Of a stretch of 64,000 bases of DNA, positions 8,373 through 64,000 are shown in pieces; the first letter of the stretch is position 1; every line of letters begins with the position of its first letter. This DNA is from Corynebacterium simulans. Lineage in GTDB: Bacteria > Actinomycetota > Actinomycetes > Mycobacteriales > Mycobacteriaceae. The translations under genes and the position numbers were made by a program. The DNA is taken from the NCBI RefSeq assembly GCF_001586215.1, contig NZ_CP014634.1, forward strand, positions 248,001-312,000, written 5' to 3'. Below the pieces are notes generated by a model. It had not been told where the DNA came from and did no database searches. It worked only from the letters and a program-made list of their open reading frames with translations.

Positions 8373-9457
8373 TATGCTGTCCCACAGATGGTGCCGGAAC
8401 CGAGGACGATATCCCCCAATTCATCGGGACTTGGCAGGTACAGCACTGCGGCCTGGCCGCGTGCCACACCGGAGAGCGGTTCTTTTAGCTCCAGCGTCAT
8501 CTTGTCGCCCTCGCGGTCCACAAACGCCTTGCAAGGCACAACCGACCCGTGCGCGCGAACCTGGACCTCACATTCCAGCTCGCCGTCCATGGCCGGGTGC
8601 AGATACTTCAAGCGATCTGCCTGAATCCTCGTCACCGCCAAGTCCTCGCGCGAACCCACGGTCACGGTGCCGCTCGCTGCATCGATGTCGGTGACATAGC
8701 GCGGGCGTCCGTCTGCCGTCGGTTCCTTGATGTCAAGGCCCTTGCGCTGACCGATGGTGTAGTTCCATGCACCGTCATGTTGCTTGAGCTCCTGGCCCTC
8801 CTGGTCCACGATCATGCCTGGACGCAAACCAATTCGCGAGCCCAAAAATGCCTGCGTATTGCCATCCGGAATAAAGCAAATGTCATAGGAGTCAGGCTTT
8901 TTGGCCGTGGAAAAGCCATGACGGGCCGCTTCCTCGCGAATCTGCGGCTTTGGGGTATCGCCGATCGGGAAATAACAATGCTCTAGTTCCTCCGCGGAAA
9001 TAACGCCCAAAACATAAGACTGATCCTTGTTTTCATCCTTGGAACGGCGCATGTAGCCGGCGTCGTCGAGCGTGGCGTAATGGCCCGTCGCTACCGCATC
9101 GAAGCCCAACGCCATACCTTTTTGGAGTAGCGCGCGAAACTTGATCTTCTCGTTGCAGCGCAGGCACGGATTCGGCGTCTCGCCGCGGGCATAAGAATCC
9201 ACGAAGTCCCCGATGACCTCTTCCTTAAACTGCTCGGAAAAATCCCAAACGTAGAAAGGAATGCCCAGCTTGTCACAGATGCGACGTGCGTCTGCAGAGT
9301 CCTCCAAGGAACAGCAACCCCTGGCCTTTTCGCGGGTTTGTTGTGCGTCTTTGTGCAGTGCCAAATGCACTCCCACCACATCGTGGCCTGCTTCCACGGC
9401 GCGGGCCGCGGCCACAGAGGAATCGACTCCGCCTGACATCGCTACGAGAACTCGCAC
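8372..9457 (-). CDS. mnmA: tRNA-specific 2-thiouridylase MnmA
   Basis: The 361-residue protein adds sulfur to U34 of tRNAs for Lys, Glu and Gln. The ATP pyrophosphatase loop SGGVDSS lies at 8-14. The catalytic Cys pair is visible as Cys98 (NPCLRCN) and a Cys at about 195 in [10 protein letters not shown]. The GTG start (9455-9457) follows a good AAGGAG site. Sulfur would come from a cysteine desulfurase; one is encoded at 16321-17430 in this window. The MetE-like gene follows with a one-base overlap. Confidence 0.96.
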
Positions 9458-9515
9458 TTAAACTCCTTTTCTTCGGCGGCCAAGCTTACTCTTCCAACCC
9501 ATTAAGCTTAAATGC

Positions 9516-10337
9516 ATGCGCAAAAAGGACGATCTCGTTGGCACCTACGAAATTTCTACCGGCACCGCGGAGGTGGTGGCGGACGAGTACCACGATAACG
9601 GATACACACTCATGGTCAATGGAGTACCTTCAAGCCACATCGTGTTGGGCGCACCGGAAGTCCTCGAGTTTGAGTACATGCGCTGGATCGCCACCGCAGT
9701 CGAAACGCTTCTGCCAGTGGCACCCGATACCCTCCGCATGACACATCTGGGTGGTGCAGGCTGCTCGCTCCCTCGCTATTTCGCCAGCATTTGGCCCAAG
9801 TCCCGCCATACCGTAGTGGAACTCGATGCCAAGCTCGGCGAATTAGTACGCACGCTTTTCGACGTCCCCCGTTCCCCCACCGTCAAAATCCGCGCCGGCG
9901 AAGCTCGCGCGGTCACCGATGGCTTCGCACCCGCTAGCCGCGACGTAATTATTCGCGATGTCTTCGCTGGCGACAAGACCCCGCATCCGCTTACTACCCG
10001 CGAGTTCTTTCAATCGGTCCGCCACGCCTTGGCGCCTGGAGGACTCTACGTTGCCAATTGCGGAGATCACCGAGATCTCAAAATCGCAAAGTCGGAATTG
10101 GCCGGGATGAAGGAGGTATTCGAGCACGTGGCCGTAATCGCGGATCCCCCGATGCTCAAGGGACGGCGTTACGGCAACATCGTTCTTCTCGCCTCAGATC
10201 GCGAAATGCCAGCTGCCGGCTCCGTGGAAGCCGCACAACTGGCAAAGTCACTGTTATCTGGCGCGGTCCCTGCCCACTATAAGGACGAGGCGTGGACCAT
10301 TAACTTCATGCAAGGCGCTACTGCGCGAGCTGATTAA
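9516..10337 (+). CDS. Spermidine synthase-like methyltransferase-fold protein
   Basis: The protein has 273 residues with a Rossmann SAM/decarboxy-SAM-binding fold: motif I is MTHLGGAGCSLPRYF at about 75, followed by VVELDAKLGELVR and VIIRDVFAGDK, the position of the catalytic Asp of aminopropyltransferases. Actinobacterial members of this group are annotated as spermidine synthases, but proof of polyamine activity is often missing and the N-terminal part is short. It is divergent from mnmA and its last 20 bases overlap the muramidase gene tail to tail. The 10-base palindrome TTAAGCTTAA (9502-9511) lies just before the ATG. Confidence 0.78.
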   Translation: MRKKDDLVGTYEISTGTAEVVADEYHDNGYTLMVNGVPSSHIVLGAPEVLEFEYMRWIATAVETLLPVAPDTLRMTHLGGAGCSLPRYFASIWPKSRHTVVELDAKLGELVRTLFDVPRSPTVKIRAGEARAVTDGFAPASRDVIIRDVFAGDKTPHPLTTREFFQSVRHALAPGGLYVANCGDHRDLKIAKSELAGMKEVFEHVAVIADPPMLKGRRYGNIVLLASDREMPAAGSVEAAQLAKSLLSGAVPAHYKDEAWTINFMQGATARAD

Positions 10338-16320: not shown

Positions 16321-17430
16321 TTATACGCTGCGGGCGCGCTTGACGACGTCGGGAAGCTGCGCCAGGACGTACTCGACGTCGGCAGGCGTTGTGTTCCTAC
16401 CAAGGGTAAAACGCAGCGAACCGATTCCATCAGAGTCGGACACATTCATCGCCTCAAGGACGTGCGACATGCGGTTGACGCCCGAGTGGCAGGCGCTGCC
16501 GGTCGAGGCCTCGATGCCCAAGGAATCGAGCAACATGATGAGGCTGTCGCCATCGGTGCCGGGGAAGGACACATGCAGGTGCGAAGCCAACATAGGTTCC
16601 TCGCAATTGAGGATGACGTTGTCGATGCTGGAGAGAATGCCGGCACGCAGCTGGTTACGAAGAGCACCGACGCGCTTGGTCTCGGAATCGATCTCAGAGA
16701 CAGACTCCTCGAGCGCAGCCGCAAGAGCAGAAGCACTGGCGACGTCCACGGTGCCGGGGCGGATGCCCCTTTCTTGGCCGCCTCCGAAAGCGATGGGCTG
16801 CGGGGCTGGGCTGCGTTTTGCAAGCAGCAAGCCGATGCCACGTGGGCCGCCGAACTTGTGGGCGCTCGCCGCGAGCGTGGTAGCACCGAGCTCGTGGAAG
16901 TCGATGGGCAGCTTGCCTGTGACCTGAACTGCATCGATGTGAACTGGGGTGCCAACTAAGTTTGCGCGGCGCACAATCTCGGCAACTGGCTGGATGGCAC
17001 CGGTCTCGTTGTTTGCCCACATGCAGGTGGCAACGTCGGCAGGCGTATCTAGTGCGGAGAAGTCGCTGACGTGGGAATAACGATCGACGGGCAGAAGATC
17101 GACCTGTGCATCCGGCAGCTGGGCAACGCTATCGCGAACGGCTGGGTGCTCGATAGGAGTCGAAACCACGCGGTTGGTGGTGCCCAGACGGTACAGGCCT
17201 TGGATGGCGATGTTGTCGGCTTCGGTGCCGGAGGAAGTGAAGATGACCTCGATCGGCTCACAGCCAAGAATATCCGCGACTTTCTCGCGGGCGTCGTCAA
17301 GCACGGAGCGAGCCTTTCGGCCCGAGGCATACTGCGCGCCGGAGTTTACCGCGCCAGAGGCGGCAACCCACGCATCGATGGCCACCTGGCGCATCGGCTG
17401 AGTAGCCGCATAGTCAAAGTAGTGCGACAT
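16321..17430 (-). CDS. Cysteine desulfurase (NifS/IscS family)
   Basis: The 369-residue PLP enzyme takes sulfur from cysteine for tRNA thiolation and Fe-S or cofactor use. The PLP Lys lies in SAHKFGGPRG, the His in TPIEHPAV, and the active Cys314 in TGSACHSG, as in the NifS/IscS group rather than SufS. The gene overlaps the etfA stop by one base (TAATG), placing it at the end of an etfBA-desulfurase unit. With mnmA in the same window it could supply sulfur for tRNA; no IscU-type scaffold is next to it. The exact isoform name is not certain. Confidence 0.92.
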   Translation of the reverse strand: MSHYFDYAATQPMRQVAIDAWVAASGAVNSGAQYASGRKARSVLDDAREKVADILGCEPIEVIFTSSGTEADNIAIQGLYRLGTTNRVVSTPIEHPAVRDSVAQLPDAQVDLLPVDRYSHVSDFSALDTPADVATCMWANNETGAIQPVAEIVRRANLVGTPVHIDAVQVTGKLPIDFHELGATTLAASAHKFGGPRGIGLLLAKRSPAPQPIAFGGGQERGIRPGTVDVASASALAAALEESVSEIDSETKRVGALRNQLRAGILSSIDNVILNCEEPMLASHLHVSFPGTDGDSLIMLLDSLGIEASTGSACHSGVNRMSHVLEAMNVSDSDGIGSLRFTLGRNTTPADVEYVLAQLPDVVKRARSV

Positions 17431-54819: not shown

Positions 54820-57800
54820 ATGACTGAAAATAAATCCGGCCCCAGCTCCCTTTTCAAGCTCGGCGCCTATCTGCGCAAAGGCGAAGCCAGCGACTCTGGC
54901 CAACAGCTGTTTTTGAAGGGCGGCAGACAGGCAGATGTCTTCTACCGCAACCGCTGGGCCTTCGACAAAATGGTTCGCTCCACACACGGCGTCAACTGCA
55001 CGGGTTCTTGCTCGTGGAAGGTCTACGTCAAAGATGGCGTCATCACCTGGGAATCCCAGGCCGTGGACTATCCCACCACCGGCAATGACATGCCGGAATA
55101 CGAGCCGCGCGGATGCCCTCGTGGTGCTTCTTTCTCCTGGTACACCTACTCGCCTACCCGCGTGCGCTATCCCTATGCGCGCGGCGTTCTGGTGGACATG
55201 TTCCGTGAGGAAAAAGCTAAAAACGGCGGCGACTCTGTCCTCGCATGGCGTGCCATCCAGGAAGATCCTGAAAAGCGCAAGGCTTATATCTCCCAGCGTG
55301 GCAAGGGCGGCCTGATTCGTATCAGCTATGAAGAGGCGATCGACATCGCTGCTGCGGCGCACGTTTACACCATTCGCAAGTACGGTCCGGACCGCATCTT
55401 CGGCTTTACAGTTATTCCTGCCATGTCGCAGGTCTCCTATGGCGCCGGCACCCGCTTCCTGCAGAGCATCGGCGGCGTCGCTCTGTCCTTCTATGACTGG
55501 TACGCCGACCTGCCGCCGGCATCCCCCCAGACCTTCGGCGATCAGACTGACGTACCGGAATCCGGTGACTGGTACAACTCTTCCTATCTCATGATGTGGG
55601 GCTCCAACATCCCGGTAACCCGTACCCCGGATGCACACTTCATGGTGGAGTCACGCTACAAAGGGACCAAGGTCGTCGTGGTTTCGCCGGACTTCGCCGA
55701 CAACACGAAGTTCGCCGACGAGTGGGCCCGCATCGAACCCGGCTCGGATGCCGCTTTGGCCTTTGCCATGGGGCATGTCATCTTGAAGAAGTTCCACGTT
55801 GAGCGCCAAGAACCGTACTTCTTGAACTACATGCGCAAGTACACGGACTCGCCTTTCTTGGTCACCTTGGACGAGCGCGAGGACGGCACCTATACCCCAG
55901 GCAAGTTCCTCACGGCTTCCCAGGTCTCCGATGCGGAGCTGAATTCCTCGCCAAACGCCACCCACCGTGGCCTCGTCATGGAAGAAGACGGCAAGGTAGT
56001 CGATCCGGGCGGCACCGTCGCTGACCGCTGGGACAACAACTCGGCGAAGTGGAACCTCTCCCTCGACAACGCCGATCCTGTCATGTCCATCGCAGAGACC
56101 GATTCCTTCGAGACCGCCGAGGTACTCTTCCCGCGCTTCGACCTGGATGCGGACCCAGCCGACATCGGCACCGAGAAGCCTGTCGGCACGGGCATCGTGC
56201 ACCGCGGTGTGCCGGTTCGTCGCGTCGACGGCAAGCTCGTGACCACGGTCTTCGACGTCATGCTCGCACACTACGGCGTCAACCGCGAAGAACTTAACTT
56301 GCCAGGTTCCTGGCCGAAGGACTTCTACGATGCCTCCGAAGTGGGCACGCCAGCCTGGCAGGAAGGCCTCACCGGCGTGCCTGCCGATACCGCCATCCGC
56401 ATCGGCCGTGAGTTTGCGCAGAACGCGGCAGATTCCAAGGGACGCTCCCAGATCATCATGGGTGCCGGCGTCAACCACTACTTCCACGCAGATACCATCT
56501 ACCGCACCTTCTTGGCGCTGACCTCGATGTGCGGCACCCAGGGTGTCAACGGTGGCGGCTGGGCTCACTACGTGGGCCAGGAGAAGCTGCGCCCTGTCAA
56601 CGGGTGGACCCAGTGGGCCATGGCCACCGACTGGCAGCGTCCTCCGCGCCACATGATTTCGACAGGCTTCTACTACTTCGCCACCGAGCAATACCGCTAC
56701 GACAACTCCCGCGCCTCCCATCTGGGATCGCCCCTGGCCAACCACGGTGCCATCGGTGACAAGATGGTCTCCGACACCATGGCTGAGGCTATGCGTCGCG
56801 GCTGGATGCCGGCTTACCCGCAGTTCAACCGCAACAACCTATTGCTTGCGGCAGAGGCAAAGGAAAAAGGCGTCGACATCAATGACTACGTTGTAAGCCA
56901 ACTCAAAGATGGCGACCTCGAGTTCTCCTACGACAACCCTTCGGCAGAAGAAAACTGGCCGCGCATTCTTTTGAACTGGCGTACCAACCTGCTGGGCTCT
57001 TCTGCAAAGGGCACCGAGTTCTTCTTGCGTCACTTGCTCGGAATCGACTCCGATGCCACGGCCGAAGAGCTCGCTGCCGAGGATCGTCCACGCACCATCA
57101 AGTGGGTTGATGAAGCTCCTGAGGGCAAGCTCGACCTCATGATGACCACAGACTTCCGCAATACGTCGACGACCTTGGTCTCTGACATCGTGCTGCCGGC
57201 AGCTACCTGGTACGAAAAGCACGATATGTCCTCGACGGATATGCACCCATACCTGCACTCCTTCAACGCGGCCATCAACCCGCCGTGGGAGGCGCGCACC
57301 GACTTCGAGGTCTTCCGCGACCTCGCGGCTTCGCTTTCTGCCAAGTCCGCAAAGTGGCTCGGCGTGCAAACTGACATCGTCACGCAACCGAGCCACCACG
57401 ACTCCCCCGATGAGTTGGGCATGCCAAACGGCATTGTGCCCGACGTCGAAAAGCTCGGCTTGGTGCCAGGGGTTACCATGCCGAAGCTGCATGTGGTGGA
57501 GCGTGACTACACCAAGATCTATGAGAAGTGGACCCACTTGGGCCCGCTGCCGGCCAAGGCCGGGACTGCGGTGCATGGCACCAAGTTCAACGTGGAAAAG
57601 CAGGTCAAAGAGCTTGAGCTCATCTGTGGAACCTCGAAGACCTCGATGGGTGAGCTCATTGACTTGAGCAAAGACACAAAGGTCATCGACGCCATCTTGC
57701 ACCTGTCCGGTGTATCCAACGGCGAGCTGGCAAAGCAAGGCTTCGAGTATCTGTCTTCGCGCACCGGCCGTGACATGACACCGCTTGCGACCTCCGATGA

Positions 57801-58548
57801 AGACGTGCGCATCAGCTGGGATTCCATCAAGGAGCGCCCGACCGAGGTCATCACCTCGCCGGAATGGACGGCTGACAAGCGCAATAAGCGCCGCTACACG
57901 GCGTTTAGTATCAACGTCGAGTTCGACAAGCCATGGCACACGCTGACCGGCCGCATGCACTACTACATCGACCACGATTGGTTCATGGACTACGGCGAGG
58001 CGCTGCCTATCTTCCGCCCACCGCTTGATCATCTGCATATGCACGGCGAATTCGCGCCGGGCCAGACCTTGCAAAATGAGCGCGGCGAGGTCGAGGTCAC
58101 ACTGCGTTATCTCACCACCCACAACAAGTGGTCGATTCACTCGCAGTACTTCGACAACCTGCACGTGCTGTCTATTTCCCGCGGCGGCCAGGTGGTCTGG
58201 ATGTCGGACAAGGACGCCGCAAAGATCGGCGTGAAGGACAACGAGTGGGTTGAGGTCTACAACCGCAACGGCATCGTGTCCGCCCGCGCCATCGTCTCCC
58301 ACCGCATCCCGGAGGGCACGATGATCTGCAACCACGCCCAGGAACGCACCGTTGGTACCCCAATCAACGAGTTCACCGGCCGCCGCGGCGGCACGCACAA
58401 CTCGCTGACCCGTATCTCCATCAAGCCGGTCCATATTGCCGGCGGCTACGGCCAGCTGACCTATCACTTCAACTACATCGGCCCAACCGGCAACAACCGC
58501 GACGAAGTCACCCGCGTGCGCCGTCGCTCCCAGGAGGTTTCTTACTAA
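54820..58548 (+). CDS. narG: Respiratory nitrate reductase alpha subunit NarG
   Basis: The 1242-residue subunit holds the Mo-bisMGD site where nitrate is reduced. The FS0 ligands are visible: His56, Cys60, Cys64 (HGVNCTGSC) and Cys99 (RGCPRG). The Mo ligand Asp250 lies in PESGDWYNSSY, followed by MMWGSNIPVTRTPDAHF. Length fits membrane-bound, cytoplasm-facing NarG; no twin-Arg signal is present. Cofactor genes lie just upstream. The stop overlaps the narH start. Confidence 0.97.
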   Translation: MTENKSGPSSLFKLGAYLRKGEASDSGQQLFLKGGRQADVFYRNRWAFDKMVRSTHGVNCTGSCSWKVYVKDGVITWESQAVDYPTTGNDMPEYEPRGCPRGASFSWYTYSPTRVRYPYARGVLVDMFREEKAKNGGDSVLAWRAIQEDPEKRKAYISQRGKGGLIRISYEEAIDIAAAAHVYTIRKYGPDRIFGFTVIPAMSQVSYGAGTRFLQSIGGVALSFYDWYADLPPASPQTFGDQTDVPESGDWYNSSYLMMWGSNIPVTRTPDAHFMVESRYKGTKVVVVSPDFADNTKFADEWARIEPGSDAALAFAMGHVILKKFHVERQEPYFLNYMRKYTDSPFLVTLDEREDGTYTPGKFLTASQVSDAELNSSPNATHRGLVMEEDGKVVDPGGTVADRWDNNSAKWNLSLDNADPVMSIAETDSFETAEVLFPRFDLDADPADIGTEKPVGTGIVHRGVPVRRVDGKLVTTVFDVMLAHYGVNREELNLPGSWPKDFYDASEVGTPAWQEGLTGVPADTAIRIGREFAQNAADSKGRSQIIMGAGVNHYFHADTIYRTFLALTSMCGTQGVNGGGWAHYVGQEKLRPVNGWTQWAMATDWQRPPRHMISTGFYYFATEQYRYDNSRASHLGSPLANHGAIGDKMVSDTMAEAMRRGWMPAYPQFNRNNLLLAAEAKEKGVDINDYVVSQLKDGDLEFSYDNPSAEENWPRILLNWRTNLLGSSAKGTEFFLRHLLGIDSDATAEELAAEDRPRTIKWVDEAPEGKLDLMMTTDFRNTSTTLVSDIVLPAATWYEKHDMSSTDMHPYLHSFNAAINPPWEARTDFEVFRDLAASLSAKSAKWLGVQTDIVTQPSHHDSPDELGMPNGIVPDVEKLGLVPGVTMPKLHVVERDYTKIYEKWTHLGPLPAKAGTAVHGTKFNVEKQVKELELICGTSKTSMGELIDLSKDTKVIDAILHLSGVSNGELAKQGFEYLSSRTGRDMTPLATSDEDVRISWDSIKERPTEVITSPEWTADKRNKRRYTAFSINVEFDKPWHTLTGRMHYYIDHDWFMDYGEALPIFRPPLDHLHMHGEFAPGQTLQNERGEVEVTLRYLTTHNKWSIHSQYFDNLHVLSISRGGQVVWMSDKDAAKIGVKDNEWVEVYNRNGIVSARAIVSHRIPEGTMICNHAQERTVGTPINEFTGRRGGTHNSLTRISIKPVHIAGGYGQLTYHFNYIGPTGNNRDEVTRVRRRSQEVSY

Positions 58549-60143
58549 TGAAAGTCATGGCCCAAATCTCCATGATCATGAACCTGGACAAGTGCATCGG
58601 CTGCCACACCTGTTCGGTCACGTGTAAGCAGGCATGGACCAACCGCGAAGGCACCGAGTACATCTGGTTCAATAACGTCGAAACCCGTCCCGGCGTGGGC
58701 TACCCGCGCACCTGGGAGGACCAGGAAAAGTGGAAGGGCGGCTGGGAGCTTACCGGCTCTGGCAAGCTAAAGCCCAAGGCCGGTGGACGCTTGAAGAAGC
58801 TGGCTACCCTGTTCCATAACCCGAACCTGCCGACGATCCAGGACTACTACGAGCCGTGGAGCTACCAATACGAGGATCTGATGGGTGCCAAGGCTGGTCA
58901 GAAGACCCAGCCCACCGCAAAGCCGGTCTCTCAAATCGATGGCCGCGAAATAAACAAGATTGAGTGGTCTTCCAACTGGGATGACAACCTGGGTGGTTCT
59001 ATTGAAACCATGGACCAGGACCCTACCCTGCACCAGATGAATCTGCAGGTAAAGAAGGAGATCGAGGACTCCTTCATGTTCTACCTGCCACGCATCTGCG
59101 AGCACTGCATGAACCCCACCTGCGTGTCTTCGTGCCCTTCCGGCGCGATGTACAAGCGCGCTGAAGACGGCATCGTGCTCGTGGATCAGGACCAGTGCCG
59201 CGGCTGGCGCATGTGTGTCTCGGGCTGCCCTTATAAGAAGGTTTACTTCAACCACAAGACCGGCAAGGCCGAGAAATGTACGCTCTGCTACCCGCGCCTT
59301 GAGGTAGGCCAGCCCACGGTTTGCTCTGAAACCTGCGTGGGCCGCCTGCGCTACTTGGGCGTCATCTTCTACGATGCCGATCGCGTGGCCGAGGCCGCCG
59401 CGACGCCGAATGAGCAGGACCTCTTTGAAGCGCAAAAGTCCATCATGCTGGACCCACACGACCCTGCTGTCGTAGCTGCCGCACAGAAAGAAGGCATCCC
59501 GCACTCCTGGATCGATGCCGCGCAGAACTCGCCAATCTACGACCTCATCTTCAAGTACAACGTCGCGCTTCCGCTGCACCCGGAGTACCGCACGCTGCCG
59601 ATGGTCTGGTACATCCCGCCGCTTTCGCCCATCGTGGACCAGGTAAGCGCCACCGGCAATGACGGCGAGGACCACAAGATCCTCTTCTCCGCACTGTCTA
59701 ACATGCGTATTCCGCTGGAGTACCTCGCAGGTCTTTTCACCGCAGGCGATACCGTGCCAGTGGAAAAGTCGCTGCGCCGCCTAGTCGCTATGCGCTCCTA
59801 CATGCGCGATATCAACTTGGGCAACGAGCCACAGGAGGAGATTGCACAGGCCGTCGGCATGACCGGAGAGGACATGGTGGCAATGTACCGCCTGCTTTCC
59901 ATCGCCAAGTACGACGACCGCTACGTCATCCCGACTGCCTCCCCGGAGACCCCGCGTGGCATCGCTTCGCTGGATCCTTTCGGCGACGTTGACCCGGCAC
60001 GCGCTTCCGAGGACGTCTTCCATGACTTGGGCATGGGCGCGCCGGAAGCCTGCACGCACGGCGCGGCAGCAGGTTCCGGCACGGTTTCCCTACTGTCGTG
60101 GACTGGTGACCGCCCCGATTCGATGTTCCCAAACCGGGACTAG
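58548..60143 (+). CDS. narH: Respiratory nitrate reductase beta subunit NarH
   Basis: The 531-residue electron-transfer subunit carries four Fe-S clusters. Cys16, Cys19, Cys22 and Cys26 (CIGCHTCSVTC) are visible, as are CEHCMNPTCVSSCPSG and the modified set CRGWRMCVSGCP, where Trp replaces a Cys, as in the [3Fe-4S] site of NarH. It passes electrons from NarI to NarG. It overlaps narG by one base. Confidence 0.97.
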   Translation: MKVMAQISMIMNLDKCIGCHTCSVTCKQAWTNREGTEYIWFNNVETRPGVGYPRTWEDQEKWKGGWELTGSGKLKPKAGGRLKKLATLFHNPNLPTIQDYYEPWSYQYEDLMGAKAGQKTQPTAKPVSQIDGREINKIEWSSNWDDNLGGSIETMDQDPTLHQMNLQVKKEIEDSFMFYLPRICEHCMNPTCVSSCPSGAMYKRAEDGIVLVDQDQCRGWRMCVSGCPYKKVYFNHKTGKAEKCTLCYPRLEVGQPTVCSETCVGRLRYLGVIFYDADRVAEAAATPNEQDLFEAQKSIMLDPHDPAVVAAAQKEGIPHSWIDAAQNSPIYDLIFKYNVALPLHPEYRTLPMVWYIPPLSPIVDQVSATGNDGEDHKILFSALSNMRIPLEYLAGLFTAGDTVPVEKSLRRLVAMRSYMRDINLGNEPQEEIAQAVGMTGEDMVAMYRLLSIAKYDDRYVIPTASPETPRGIASLDPFGDVDPARASEDVFHDLGMGAPEACTHGAAAGSGTVSLLSWTGDRPDSMFPNRD

Positions 60144-60158
60144 GGGGTAAGGCTGAAG

Positions 60159-60977
60159 ATGAATATCTTTGAAAAGCTTGCCACCCGTGCGGCTCAACCT
60201 CCGCAAGATGACGCCGTGGCAGGATACGGCACCGTCAGCGGTGTGCCTGCCGGCATCGGCTCTTTGGGCGGAGCTGCCGATGTCAAGCGCACGGCACGTA
60301 CACACACCGGCCAGGTCCCCACTGACTTCGTGACACCGGTGGCGGTCGATGAGACCCAGCGGCGCATCGTCGCCATGGCAGCCAGTGTCTTGCTGCGCTA
60401 CCCGGAGGAGGATTTCCTCTCCCATTTGGACGTGGTCCAGGACCAGCTCGACCAGCTACCAATGGCGCTGGCAACGGACTTCATGGGCTTTATCGACGCC
60501 GCCCGTACCGCGGGGCTGCGCGCGCTGCAGGAGCACTACGTTGAGACCTTCGATCAGCGCCGCCGCTGCTCGCTGTTTTTGTCCTACTACGCCGTCGGCG
60601 ATACCCGGCAGCGCGGAATGGCCATCTTGTCCTTCTCCCAGCAGCTTGAGTCCTTTGGTTTCCAGCTGGCAGAAAATGAATTGCCGGACCACCTCTGCGT
60701 GGTTCTGGAAGCGCTAGGACTCGCCGAGGGCGAAGACCATGCGCGCGCCGTTGAGATGCTGGCGAGCTATCGCGAGGGCATAGAGGTGCTGCGTGCTGCG
60801 CTTTCACAACAGGATTCGCCTTATGTGCGTCTTATCGTCGCCGTGTGCAAGGCGCTGCCGAAGGTAGATGCCGAAACCGCGCAGAAATACGTCGATCTCA
60901 TTCGTACCGGCCCTCCAGCTGAAATGGTGGGCATTGCCGATCTTCCTTTCCCCACTGCCCAACCTGATCTCGTTTAA
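60159..60977 (+). CDS. narJ: Nitrate reductase chaperone NarJ
   Basis: The 272-residue TorD/NarJ-family chaperone helps Mo cofactor insertion into NarG and is not part of the final enzyme. It has RIVAMAASVLLRYPEEDF, HYVETFDQRRRCSLFLSYY and ELPDHLCVVLE. The first ~60 residues are not conserved chaperone sequence and are longer than in E. coli. It lies 15 bases after narH. Confidence 0.94.
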   Translation: MNIFEKLATRAAQPPQDDAVAGYGTVSGVPAGIGSLGGAADVKRTARTHTGQVPTDFVTPVAVDETQRRIVAMAASVLLRYPEEDFLSHLDVVQDQLDQLPMALATDFMGFIDAARTAGLRALQEHYVETFDQRRRCSLFLSYYAVGDTRQRGMAILSFSQQLESFGFQLAENELPDHLCVVLEALGLAEGEDHARAVEMLASYREGIEVLRAALSQQDSPYVRLIVAVCKALPKVDAETAQKYVDLIRTGPPAEMVGIADLPFPTAQPDLV

Positions 60978-60986
60978 GGAGCACTC

Positions 60987-61769
60987 ATGGATTATTTCAA
61001 CAACTTTTTCTGGGGTGCCTTCCCGTGGCTGGCCATCGCCGCGTTTTTCGTCGGCATCTTCTGGCGCTGGCGCACCGACCAATTCGGTTGGACCACGCAC
61101 TCTTCCCAGATCTATGAATCGAAGCTGCTACGCCTTTCCTCCCCGCTGTTCCACTGGGGCATGGTCTTCGTGGTCATCGGCCACCTGATGGGCTTGGCTT
61201 TCCCAAAGTCGTGGACGCGTGCAGTAGGCATCAGTGACCACGCTTATCACCTGTTAGCGACGATCCCTGGCTCCATCGCGGCGGTCGCCGTGGTTCTTGG
61301 CTTCGTGGGTCTGCTTTACCGCCGCATCGTTAATCGCTCAGTGTTTCTGTCCACCTCGAGCTCGGACAAGGTCATGTACTTCTTCCTGGCGCTAGCGCTG
61401 CTGTCTGGCACCATCGCGACGTTTAGCACCCAGGTCTTCGGCGGGCCACATGGCTATGACTACCGCGAGACCATCTCGCCGTGGCTGCGCCAGCTGCTGA
61501 TCTTCAACATCCACCCGGAGTGGATGGCTGATGTTCCCTGGCAGTTCAAGGTCCACGTTTTGTGTGGATTTACCATCATCGCCGTCTGGCCTTTTACTCG
61601 CCTGGTCCACGCTTTCTCGGCGCCGGTGGGCTACGTCACCCGTCCGTACGTGGTCTACCGTTCCCGCGACCAGCGCGCCACGGATATGCGCTCACACACT
61701 GCGTGGGAGCCGGTGCGTTCCCACCGCGCGCAGCTCGACGCCAACGAGACTCCTGCCCACGGAGCCTAA
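60987..61769 (+). CDS. narI: Respiratory nitrate reductase gamma subunit NarI
   Basis: The 260-residue cytochrome b anchors NarGH and oxidises menaquinol. It has five membrane helices and the haem-His candidates in FHWGMVFVVIGHLMG and VHVLCGFTIIAVWPFTRLVH. Length and topology are normal. It lies 9 bases after narJ and is followed by a terminator. Confidence 0.95.
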   Translation: MDYFNNFFWGAFPWLAIAAFFVGIFWRWRTDQFGWTTHSSQIYESKLLRLSSPLFHWGMVFVVIGHLMGLAFPKSWTRAVGISDHAYHLLATIPGSIAAVAVVLGFVGLLYRRIVNRSVFLSTSSSDKVMYFFLALALLSGTIATFSTQVFGGPHGYDYRETISPWLRQLLIFNIHPEWMADVPWQFKVHVLCGFTIIAVWPFTRLVHAFSAPVGYVTRPYVVYRSRDQRATDMRSHTAWEPVRSHRAQLDANETPAHGA

Positions 61770-61827: not shown

Positions 61828-63195
61828 CTACTGCGTGACCACAATCTTTCCGTGCTGGCCCTTTTCGGCCGAGGTCATGATGTGATTGACAAAGCTATAG
61901 GTGCCGGGTTCATTGAAGGTCATCTCCACGAAGCCGCCCTGCGCGGGTAGGAGATCCAGCGCCTGCGAACCCGAATCGCGACGGTCCTTAATCAGGTAGT
62001 CGCCCTCCTTGTACGCGGTGTCAAATTGCTCGCCCACCACGTGGAAAGACAACGGCTGGTCTGGGCCCACGTTGAGCAGCCAGATGCGTACCTTATCGCC
62101 CACCTTGGCATGCAGTGGCTCAAGGTCGTACTGATTCGGATAGTAATTAAACGCCATCAGGTCGTACTCGCCGTTTGAGACGCGGTCGGCGTCGGCGCCA
62201 TTTTCGTCGCCCAGGAAGATTTCGTCGGCGATCATTGCGTACTCCGCATCGGCGTCGCCAAGCTCTGGCGGATCGATGACCACCGCACCGGCCATGCCGT
62301 TGGCAATGTGTAGGCTCATCGGCGCCGTGGAGCAGTGATACATCCAGATGCCGGAGCGATGCGCGGTGAACTCATAAGTCAGGGACTCGCCCGGCGCGAT
62401 GGTCTTCATGTTCTCATCCGGGTTGACCTCGCCGGCGTGGAAGTCCACGGAGTGGCCCATGCTTCCCTCGTTCTTGATGGTGATCTTGAACTTATCGCCC
62501 ACCTTGCCGCGCAGGGCTGGCCCTGGGGCTTGGCCGTTGAATAGCCACCGCGTTTGTTTTACACCTGGCGCTACCTCGACCTCTTCCTCGGTCATGGTCC
62601 AGGTTTCCTCGTGGGTGGTTCCTTCGGCCTTGGCCAAGCGGGCATCGAAAGCCTTGAAGTCGTCGCGCTTCTGGGTGCGCTCCGCCGCACTCGGTACGTC
62701 GGGGTGGCTCGCAGAGTGATGGTGCTCGTGCATGGCATCGCCTGCTGTGCCTGCAGCTCCCGCGGCGTCGTCAGTCGTGTTGATCTGGAGCACCATACCC
62801 TGTGCTTTGTGCCCGGCGATAGTGCAATAGCCCTGGGTGGATTCGTTGATAATGCCCGCATCGAGCTCAACGGTCTTGCCTGGCTCCACACGGCCGGTCT
62901 CGTTGTCACCAATCTTTAGGTCGTGGACCTGGTCGCCGTCGTTGGTGAAGTTGACCACAAGGTGGGCGCCCTGTGGCACGTCAATCGAAGCCGGGACGAA
63001 GGCCATGCCGGAGACTGAGACGTCGACAACGGTCGCTTCCACGCCCGCGCTTTCCGACGCCCTTTGCGCCTTGCCCGTGCTATTAAACACCGCGAGCGCG
63101 ATAACCGCAGCAAGGGCAATGCCGATGAGCAGCCAGGAGGCCCAATTGTTTTGAACCGGCGGCTTCGGAGATTGATTCGAAGAAACGCTGAGCAT
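61828..63195 (-). CDS. nirK: Copper-containing nitrite reductase with extra N-terminal cupredoxin domain
   Basis: The 455-residue protein reduces nitrite to NO. One membrane helix (about 18-37) anchors it outside the cell. Residues about 50-140 form an added cupredoxin with a full type-1 copper set: His91, Cys124, His129, Met134. A His-rich linker (HEHHHSASH) follows. The two NirK domains (about 195-455) keep type-1 ligands His248, Cys288, His296, Met301, type-2 ligands His253, His287, His438, and catalytic Asp251 and His385. The N-terminal domain may feed electrons to NirK. It converges with the nar operon. Confidence 0.93.
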   Translation of the reverse strand: MLSVSSNQSPKPPVQNNWASWLLIGIALAAVIALAVFNSTGKAQRASESAGVEATVVDVSVSGMAFVPASIDVPQGAHLVVNFTNDGDQVHDLKIGDNETGRVEPGKTVELDAGIINESTQGYCTIAGHKAQGMVLQINTTDDAAGAAGTAGDAMHEHHHSASHPDVPSAAERTQKRDDFKAFDARLAKAEGTTHEETWTMTEEEVEVAPGVKQTRWLFNGQAPGPALRGKVGDKFKITIKNEGSMGHSVDFHAGEVNPDENMKTIAPGESLTYEFTAHRSGIWMYHCSTAPMSLHIANGMAGAVVIDPPELGDADAEYAMIADEIFLGDENGADADRVSNGEYDLMAFNYYPNQYDLEPLHAKVGDKVRIWLLNVGPDQPLSFHVVGEQFDTAYKEGDYLIKDRRDSGSQALDLLPAQGGFVEMTFNEPGTYSFVNHIMTSAEKGQHGKIVVTQ

Positions 63196-64000
63196 TTAGT
63201 TCTCCAGTCTTTTCTGCTTGTAAACGGCCACTACGATGGCCAAGACGTTGGTGATAAGGCCAAGCCCCATCATGATAAGCCCGGCAACATCCGCGCCGAG
63301 TAAGCACAACACTGCGCCCAAGTTGATAAGCACCAAACGCGCATAACCGCCGCGGTCAGCGACTTTTCGCCCTAGTGTGACTTTCGCCAGACCGCCGCCC
63401 AACAGGGTGGGCAGGAGGTGATGCAGCACGCCGATGACCAATTGCAACAGGCCAGCGCCGACGAAGGCGGGCATGAGCAACAACGTCACCGCGCGCGGGT
63501 AGACGCCGATGACGGCGCACACCGCGTCCGCAGCGCACAAGCTGAGCATCCACAGCAGGCCCGCCTGCACGGAGACGGCAGCAGTGGTCTGCTGCGGGTT
63601 TCCCGCCACCACCGTGGCCAGGATGGGCTGAATGATGAGAATCGCGGCGAGCACGACGAGCAACTGGGCCATGCCCGCTGCCCGTGTAAGCCCCACCGCG
63701 TAAAGCCCCACCGCGAGGGCGAGGCCTACGCAGTGCACCGTAAGTACCCGGGAACAGCGGGCGCGCGCTGCCGGGGCGATCTTGGTGCCCGACAGCGTGG
63801 GCAGCAGCGTGACCACAGTTCCGAGGATGGTCAGCCAGGCAAAGCCCCACACCATTCCGCGGGAGTGCGCGGCGACCAGCAGTGAGTAGTTGCCCACACC
63901 GTTACCCGCCAAAATGACCATCACGACTGAGGCCACCAAGAACACGGCGGCCGTAATGTAGAAAGGTACTGTCACGGCAAAAGAACCCGCAAGCGAGCCT
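63196..64000 (-). CDS. Polytopic membrane protein next to nirK (N-terminus beyond window)
   Basis: At least 268 residues with about eight membrane helices; the frame is open to the window edge, so the GTG at 63975 may not be the start. His residues lie near helix ends (LLVAAHSRGMVWGFAWL, VLTVHCVG, VIGVLHHLLPTLL), a layout seen in NnrS-like and oxidase-related membrane proteins. It ends one base before nirK and is likely read with it. A role in NO or copper handling is only inferred. Confidence 0.6.
   Translation of the reverse strand, partial: GSLAGSFAVTVPFYITAAVFLVASVVMVILAGNGVGNYSLLVAAHSRGMVWGFAWLTILGTVVTLLPTLSGTKIAPAARARCSRVLTVHCVGLALAVGLYAVGLTRAAGMAQLLVVLAAILIIQPILATVVAGNPQQTTAAVSVQAGLLWMLSLCAADAVCAVIGVYPRAVTLLLMPAFVGAGLLQLVIGVLHHLLPTLLGGGLAKVTLGRKVADRGGYARLVLINLGAVLCLLGADVAGLIMMGLGLITNVLAIVVAVYKQKRLEN

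Follow-up and report, generated by a model that had tools for sequence, protein, structure and literature searches.

Organisation of the nirK locus

The stretch analysed here (the window, 64,000 nucleotides of Corynebacterium simulans, contig NZ_CP014634.1, positions 248,001 to 312,000; the genome is one contig of 2,737,971 bases) carries a gene for a copper nitrite reductase, nirK, coupled to the gene of a membrane protein that we call M. The nirK reading frame encodes 455 amino acids on the minus strand at 61828..63195, where the plus-strand frame is interrupted by stops. All its parts lie on that strand: a predicted anchor helix of hydrophobic sequence (residues 18-37, 63085..63144), an N-terminal cupredoxin whose predicted strands span residues 54-141 (62773..63036), with the type 1 (T1) copper ligands H91, C124, H129 and M134, a linker (142-193, 62617..62772; model confidence is low at about 141-160) and a NirK core of two domains (194-455, 61831..62616). 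The core holds H248, D251, H253, H287, C288, H296, M301, H385 and H438, that is, the T1 and type 2 (T2) copper ligands and the catalytic Asp and His of copper nitrite reductases, and from these residues and the domains the probable activity is reduction of nitrite to nitric oxide (NO). The original prediction, made from the letters of this DNA, had described a complete cupredoxin behind a membrane helix and ahead of an intact NirK, and this description, including the numbering His91, Cys124, His129 and Met134, is correct. Pfam places Cupredoxin_1 at residues 31-112 and Cu-oxidase_3 and Copper-bind in the core. The protein is not filed under TIGR02376, the NCBI naming model for NirK, since its score of 139.5 bits is below the curated cut-off of 296.3, which serves as naming threshold.

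M lies directly upstream of nirK on the same strand. Its C-terminal two thirds are in the window (63196..64000), while the start of the 399-residue protein is at genome position 312395. At the junction (63193..63205, minus strand) the M stop TAA (63196-63198) abuts the nirK ATG (63193-63195) in the same frame, with a GGAG (63202-63205) within the end of M. The TAA-ATG arrangement is shared by 13 named Corynebacterium loci (L005, L006, L008-L016, L018 and L019), and in the profile run a single in-frame TAA separates M and NirK in ten genomes of our genus survey among the matches listed, that of C. simulans included; in several further loci, e.g. L020, L065, L073 and L087, an ATG overlaps the M stop. 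Because the stop of M and the following start abut or overlap, M and nirK look translationally coupled, as judged from sequence. In other Corynebacterium and other Actinomycetota, M, cupredoxin and NirK are encoded together in a single open frame, about 840-1100 codons long.

M has 12 predicted transmembrane (TM) helices, and its predicted structure has the fold of heme-copper oxidase subunit I. The codons of H177, Q318 and R353 are at 63865-63867, 63442-63444 and 63337-63339 (minus strand), and that of H49 is beyond the window. Several relatives of M (P0124-P0239) are named beta-carotene 15,15'-monooxygenase in public records, a name that looks wrong because of the predicted oxidase subunit-I-like fold. 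A second membrane protein, U, precedes and overlaps M (L026:12383-13762, minus strand, outside the window).

Conservation of the copper ligands

The four N-terminal T1 ligands are invariant in an alignment of 86 proteins (the C. simulans sequence, 71 of 120 listed relatives and 14 of 79 listed homologues), and the ligand set is therefore not due to chance. The loss of ligands in close relatives, which the original prediction had named as a check on itself, did not occur. The core positions are equally invariant, save Met301, which is found in 85 of the 86. The closest of 23 named loci is that of C. striatum ATCC 6940 (95%), identical over the cupredoxin stretch and 95% identical in the core. 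The His-rich linker (HEHHHSASH) that had also been pointed out is present in C. simulans, but it was rejected as a conserved element: at least two linker His are found in 64 of the 86 proteins, and HxH or HH in only 37.

Distribution of M, cupredoxin and NirK

Sixty NirK loci were typed in the genus survey among the matches listed. NirK is fused to M in 22 of them, G507 with its broken contig included, and split from it in frame in 10. In another 25, M lies no more than 2.5 kb away, on the same strand in 21. Of the three that are left, the second copy in G439 has M alongside. A survey of the phylum gave 29 NirK-like loci, with 7 fusions to M and M on a neighbouring frame in three (L041, L042 and L049). 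Cupredoxin and NirK can also be separate adjoining genes, in either order (L040:116-1700 and L044:1192-2952).

M and cupredoxin also occur together without NirK. The NirK domain is missing in 32 of the 79 homologues listed for fused-type M; the CX4HX4M motif is intact in 31 of these 32 and cut off in one, and the string HDL is present in 31, P0287 being without that exact string. A vestigial NirK linker was looked for in these proteins and not accepted. In a midpoint-rooted tree of M (83 rows, one of them, the NirK-less P0242, truncated) the NirK-less proteins are nested in NirK-bearing branches with at least four label changes, which makes loss of NirK the likelier direction than gain. C. glutamicum carries such a NirK-less protein (P0290), and among the matches listed an M-cupredoxin protein is present in 18 genomes, 16 of them without NirK. 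M and cupredoxin are separate adjoining genes, with no NirK within the fetched stretch, in L057, L060, L065, L066, L073 and L074; in L065 (6190-9081) one cupredoxin gene is flanked by two M-type genes.

C. simulans has a second M paralogue without cupredoxin (G000:C1:1635111-1636376, L098:6100-7536, minus strand); next to it are MFS and LysR genes, together with what the sequence suggests are sodA and msrA. Comparable surroundings (an MFS gene, M and the same next gene) contain M-cupredoxin in L056, L063, L064, L068 and L072, and M-cupredoxin-NirK in L079.

Relation to known systems

Searched by itself against the PDB, the cupredoxin sequence had no useful match (best E 0.077), and a profile was needed. 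The 23-sequence cupredoxin profile found first the N-terminal domains of Hyphomicrobium denitrificans NirK (HdNiR; 2dv6, E 5.7e-10, residues 57-130; 6tfd, E 2e-8). Lower matches were NirK 6hbe, designed proteins and single cupredoxins, with cytochrome oxidase subunit II domains from E 0.0025. HdNiR (2dv6, 6tfd and 6tfo) thus shares with the C. simulans enzyme a complete, related T1 cupredoxin ahead of the core, aligned through CX4HX4M, whereas neither a membrane anchor nor an M partner is mentioned for it in the available text of PMC7201279. The portions of PMC4770552 at hand describe an N-terminal cupredoxin with the same motif in all actinobacterial NirK of that set, and for Propionibacterium acnes NirK a 400-residue transmembrane domain, its function and that of the cupredoxin being called unknown there; C. 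pseudotuberculosis NirK has 882 residues and about 13 predicted TM helices, according to the part of PMC5338063 available. Fusion relatives place the C. simulans protein in the same family, with a membrane region of about 400-500 residues ahead of the cupredoxin. In those proteins (in PMC4770552 only some members) this region is within the same polypeptide, while here it is the separate gene M with its stop abutting the next start; no fold is assigned to it in the available portions of either paper. The N-terminal donor position that the original prediction took as unusual is thus already found in HdNiR and in these actinobacterial enzymes, and novelty of the domain order was rejected. A cupredoxin in all actinobacterial NirK was likewise not upheld as a general rule, as 12 of the 29 phylum-survey loci, some on short contigs, are without the N-terminal motif; two of these 12, L040 and L044, have a cupredoxin gene adjoining NirK.

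A donor-type domain is likewise fused in the C-terminally tethered RpNiR, PhNiR and TsNirK and in the four-domain Bradyrhizobium NirK (6the), but at the opposite end or with a heme added, and no M partner is mentioned in the accessible text of PMC7201279 and PMC6400189. With the NnrS family (PF05940), M shares a weak profile similarity and a link to nitrogen oxides; M and U are below the Pfam cut-off, and M differs in its tie to cupredoxin. The ligand set of the cupredoxin is T1 and not CuA, unlike that associated with heme-copper oxidases and NO reductases. In the literature searched, with most subscription journals outside that search, no link was found between an NnrS-like or oxidase-fold protein and cupredoxin-NirK. 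Overall, the three-domain NirK is already known in kind, and the coupled oxidase-fold partner M is the part that deserves work.

Proposed function

Starting from the sequence, ligand conservation, gene linkage and the predicted fold and topology, we suggest, with slightly less than even confidence, that M and nirK form one membrane-bound nitrite reductase in which M feeds electrons through the cupredoxin; a heme in M, a quinol donor, the direction of electron flow and contact between the parts are what we infer beyond those data. M would draw electrons from the membrane, most likely from menaquinol, and move them probably via heme bound by conserved His. The anchored cupredoxin, placed like subunit II, would collect them at the outer face and pass them over the flexible linker to the core T1 copper and on to T2, where nitrite would be reduced to NO. 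In line with a relay, pulse radiolysis cited in PMC7201279 is reported, in the text available, to have the N-terminal copper of HdNiR reduced first and then passing its electron on. PF13473 and PF00127 find no protein in the 2.74-Mb genome besides the NirK of the window, although these families do not span every possible donor. The suggestion that the N-terminal domain is a built-in relay replacing a separate donor stands as regards a conserved T1 domain behind a helix, but the domain is not a relay complete in itself, since the 12-TM partner M accompanies the cupredoxin; the relay itself is unproven.

Several results weigh against this proposal. In heme-copper oxidases, conserved His for the low-spin heme, the high-spin heme and CuB are located in TM2, TM6, TM7 and TM10. 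This pattern is not conserved in M, where only H49 (TM2) and H177 (TM6) are invariant among 83 sequences; position 221 in TM7 is His in 26 of them, and positions 325 and 326 in TM10 in 22 and 36, the last in 27 of 27 in the split subset. Oxidase-like, as used of M, therefore refers to the fold alone. A comparison of the M profile with actinobacterial COX1 fell short of significance (best probability 1.4%), an hmmsearch with the M profile over the actinobacterial COX1 set gave no match, and the M sequence had no match in the PDB up to E 1; M is in these respects unlike cbb3 CcoN and cNOR NorB. Its NnrS likeness is weak (11.8 bits, and 19.8 bits with E 5.6e-4 for U, at a Pfam cut-off of 28 bits). 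No M was found at the Corynebacterium NirK loci G460 and G538. In the phylum survey, where the search took in about 1.5 kb around NirK, M was weakly seen at 2 of the 29 loci (L048 and L054) and not at 17, and 8 of the 17 loci with the N-terminal motif were without M in that interval; the tight link of M and NirK is therefore a Corynebacterium result. The predicted NirK monomer superposed jointly on HdNiR with a root mean square deviation of 10.7 Å, a value for a monomer model only. In HdNiR, a hexamer of head-to-head trimers, the T1 coppers are about 24 Å apart, beyond the roughly 20 Å that the original prediction had set as a limit, and the relay is questioned; an enzyme mutated at its N-terminal T1 site is reported to be more active (available portions of PMC7201279 and PMC4770552, respectively).

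The NnrS likeness opens an alternative that we consider somewhat unlikely, namely that M is an NnrS-like handler of, or protection against, the NO made by NirK, coupled to it for detoxification, with electrons coming from a cytochrome of the bcc complex via the cupredoxin or directly. NnrS matches at E <= 0.01 were found in 12 of 61 relatives of M, in addition to the similarity of M and U; a search of the C. simulans genome with the NnrS family gave no match, but 14 controls were also silent and the result is uninformative. The available text of PMC1274295 places NnrS in NO-responsive regulons and calls it a heme-copper membrane protein, and that of PMC6769254 ties it to nitrosative stress. 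A donor of this kind may be present, as the only PF13442 protein of the genome is a diheme-like frame of 297 residues, matched twice. We tentatively take this frame to be QcrC. However, NO would already be served in this genome by the second of two COX1-type matches, a 908-residue frame resembling, by its sequence, a quinol NO reductase of the NorB type, and the pairing of M with cupredoxin even without NirK speaks for a pair that transfers electrons.

The HdNiR distance, the doubts about its relay and the more active mutant could also mean that the cupredoxin is not an obligate relay and that, in line with a suggestion made for HdNiR, its role is to hold NirK close to the membrane and to shape the oligomer, with the core T1 taking the electrons. 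This is improbable, as a copper site is superfluous for a purely structural role, yet all four ligands are invariant and the motif is kept in nearly all NirK-less proteins. A His2-Cys-Met set is typical of electron-transfer cupredoxins. This set, the poor conservation of the linker His and the persistence of the M-cupredoxin module without NirK make it very improbable that cupredoxin and linker load NirK with copper as a chaperone and that M is a copper-handling membrane protein, in spite of the His-rich linker, a CopI-type match over residues 27-98 that is weak (27.3 bits against a cut-off of 280) and the listing of NnrS as a cuproprotein in the available text of PMC6769254.

A broader and more doubtful speculation is that Actinomycetota reversed the role of an oxidase-type scaffold, in which an anchored cupredoxin stands as subunit II next to a subunit-I fold, and now use it as a device for electron entry. 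Such a quinol:nitrite oxidoreductase, encoded by a single fused gene or by two coupled ones, would pass electrons outward from a membrane heme via T1 copper to NirK without cytochrome c, and the NirK-less device would serve other acceptors. The membrane region was earlier described without a function (PMC4770552, as far as available), and an oxidase-core-like fold is predicted for it here. Together with the persistence of M-cupredoxin without NirK, this fold narrows the donor question to whether M contains heme and oxidises quinol. If it does, NirK would be linked to the fold of heme-copper oxidases, which would matter for how Actinomycetota without soluble donors form NO.

Neighbouring genes

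In the window, narG, narH, narJ and narI (54820..61769, plus strand) converge on nirK; narJ and narI were assigned by Pfam and NCBIfam, narG and narH judged from sequence. L073 (3792-12894), with U, M and cupredoxin but no NirK beside MoaC and MFS genes and others judged from sequence to be molybdopterin genes, is again a nitrate-respiration setting. U stands ahead of M in many split loci. A DUF2249 gene and a helix-turn-helix regulator are found near U, M and nirK (L026:13433-13786 and 16329-17036), and in L065 a helix-turn-helix gene (9141-9899) adjoins M and cupredoxin.
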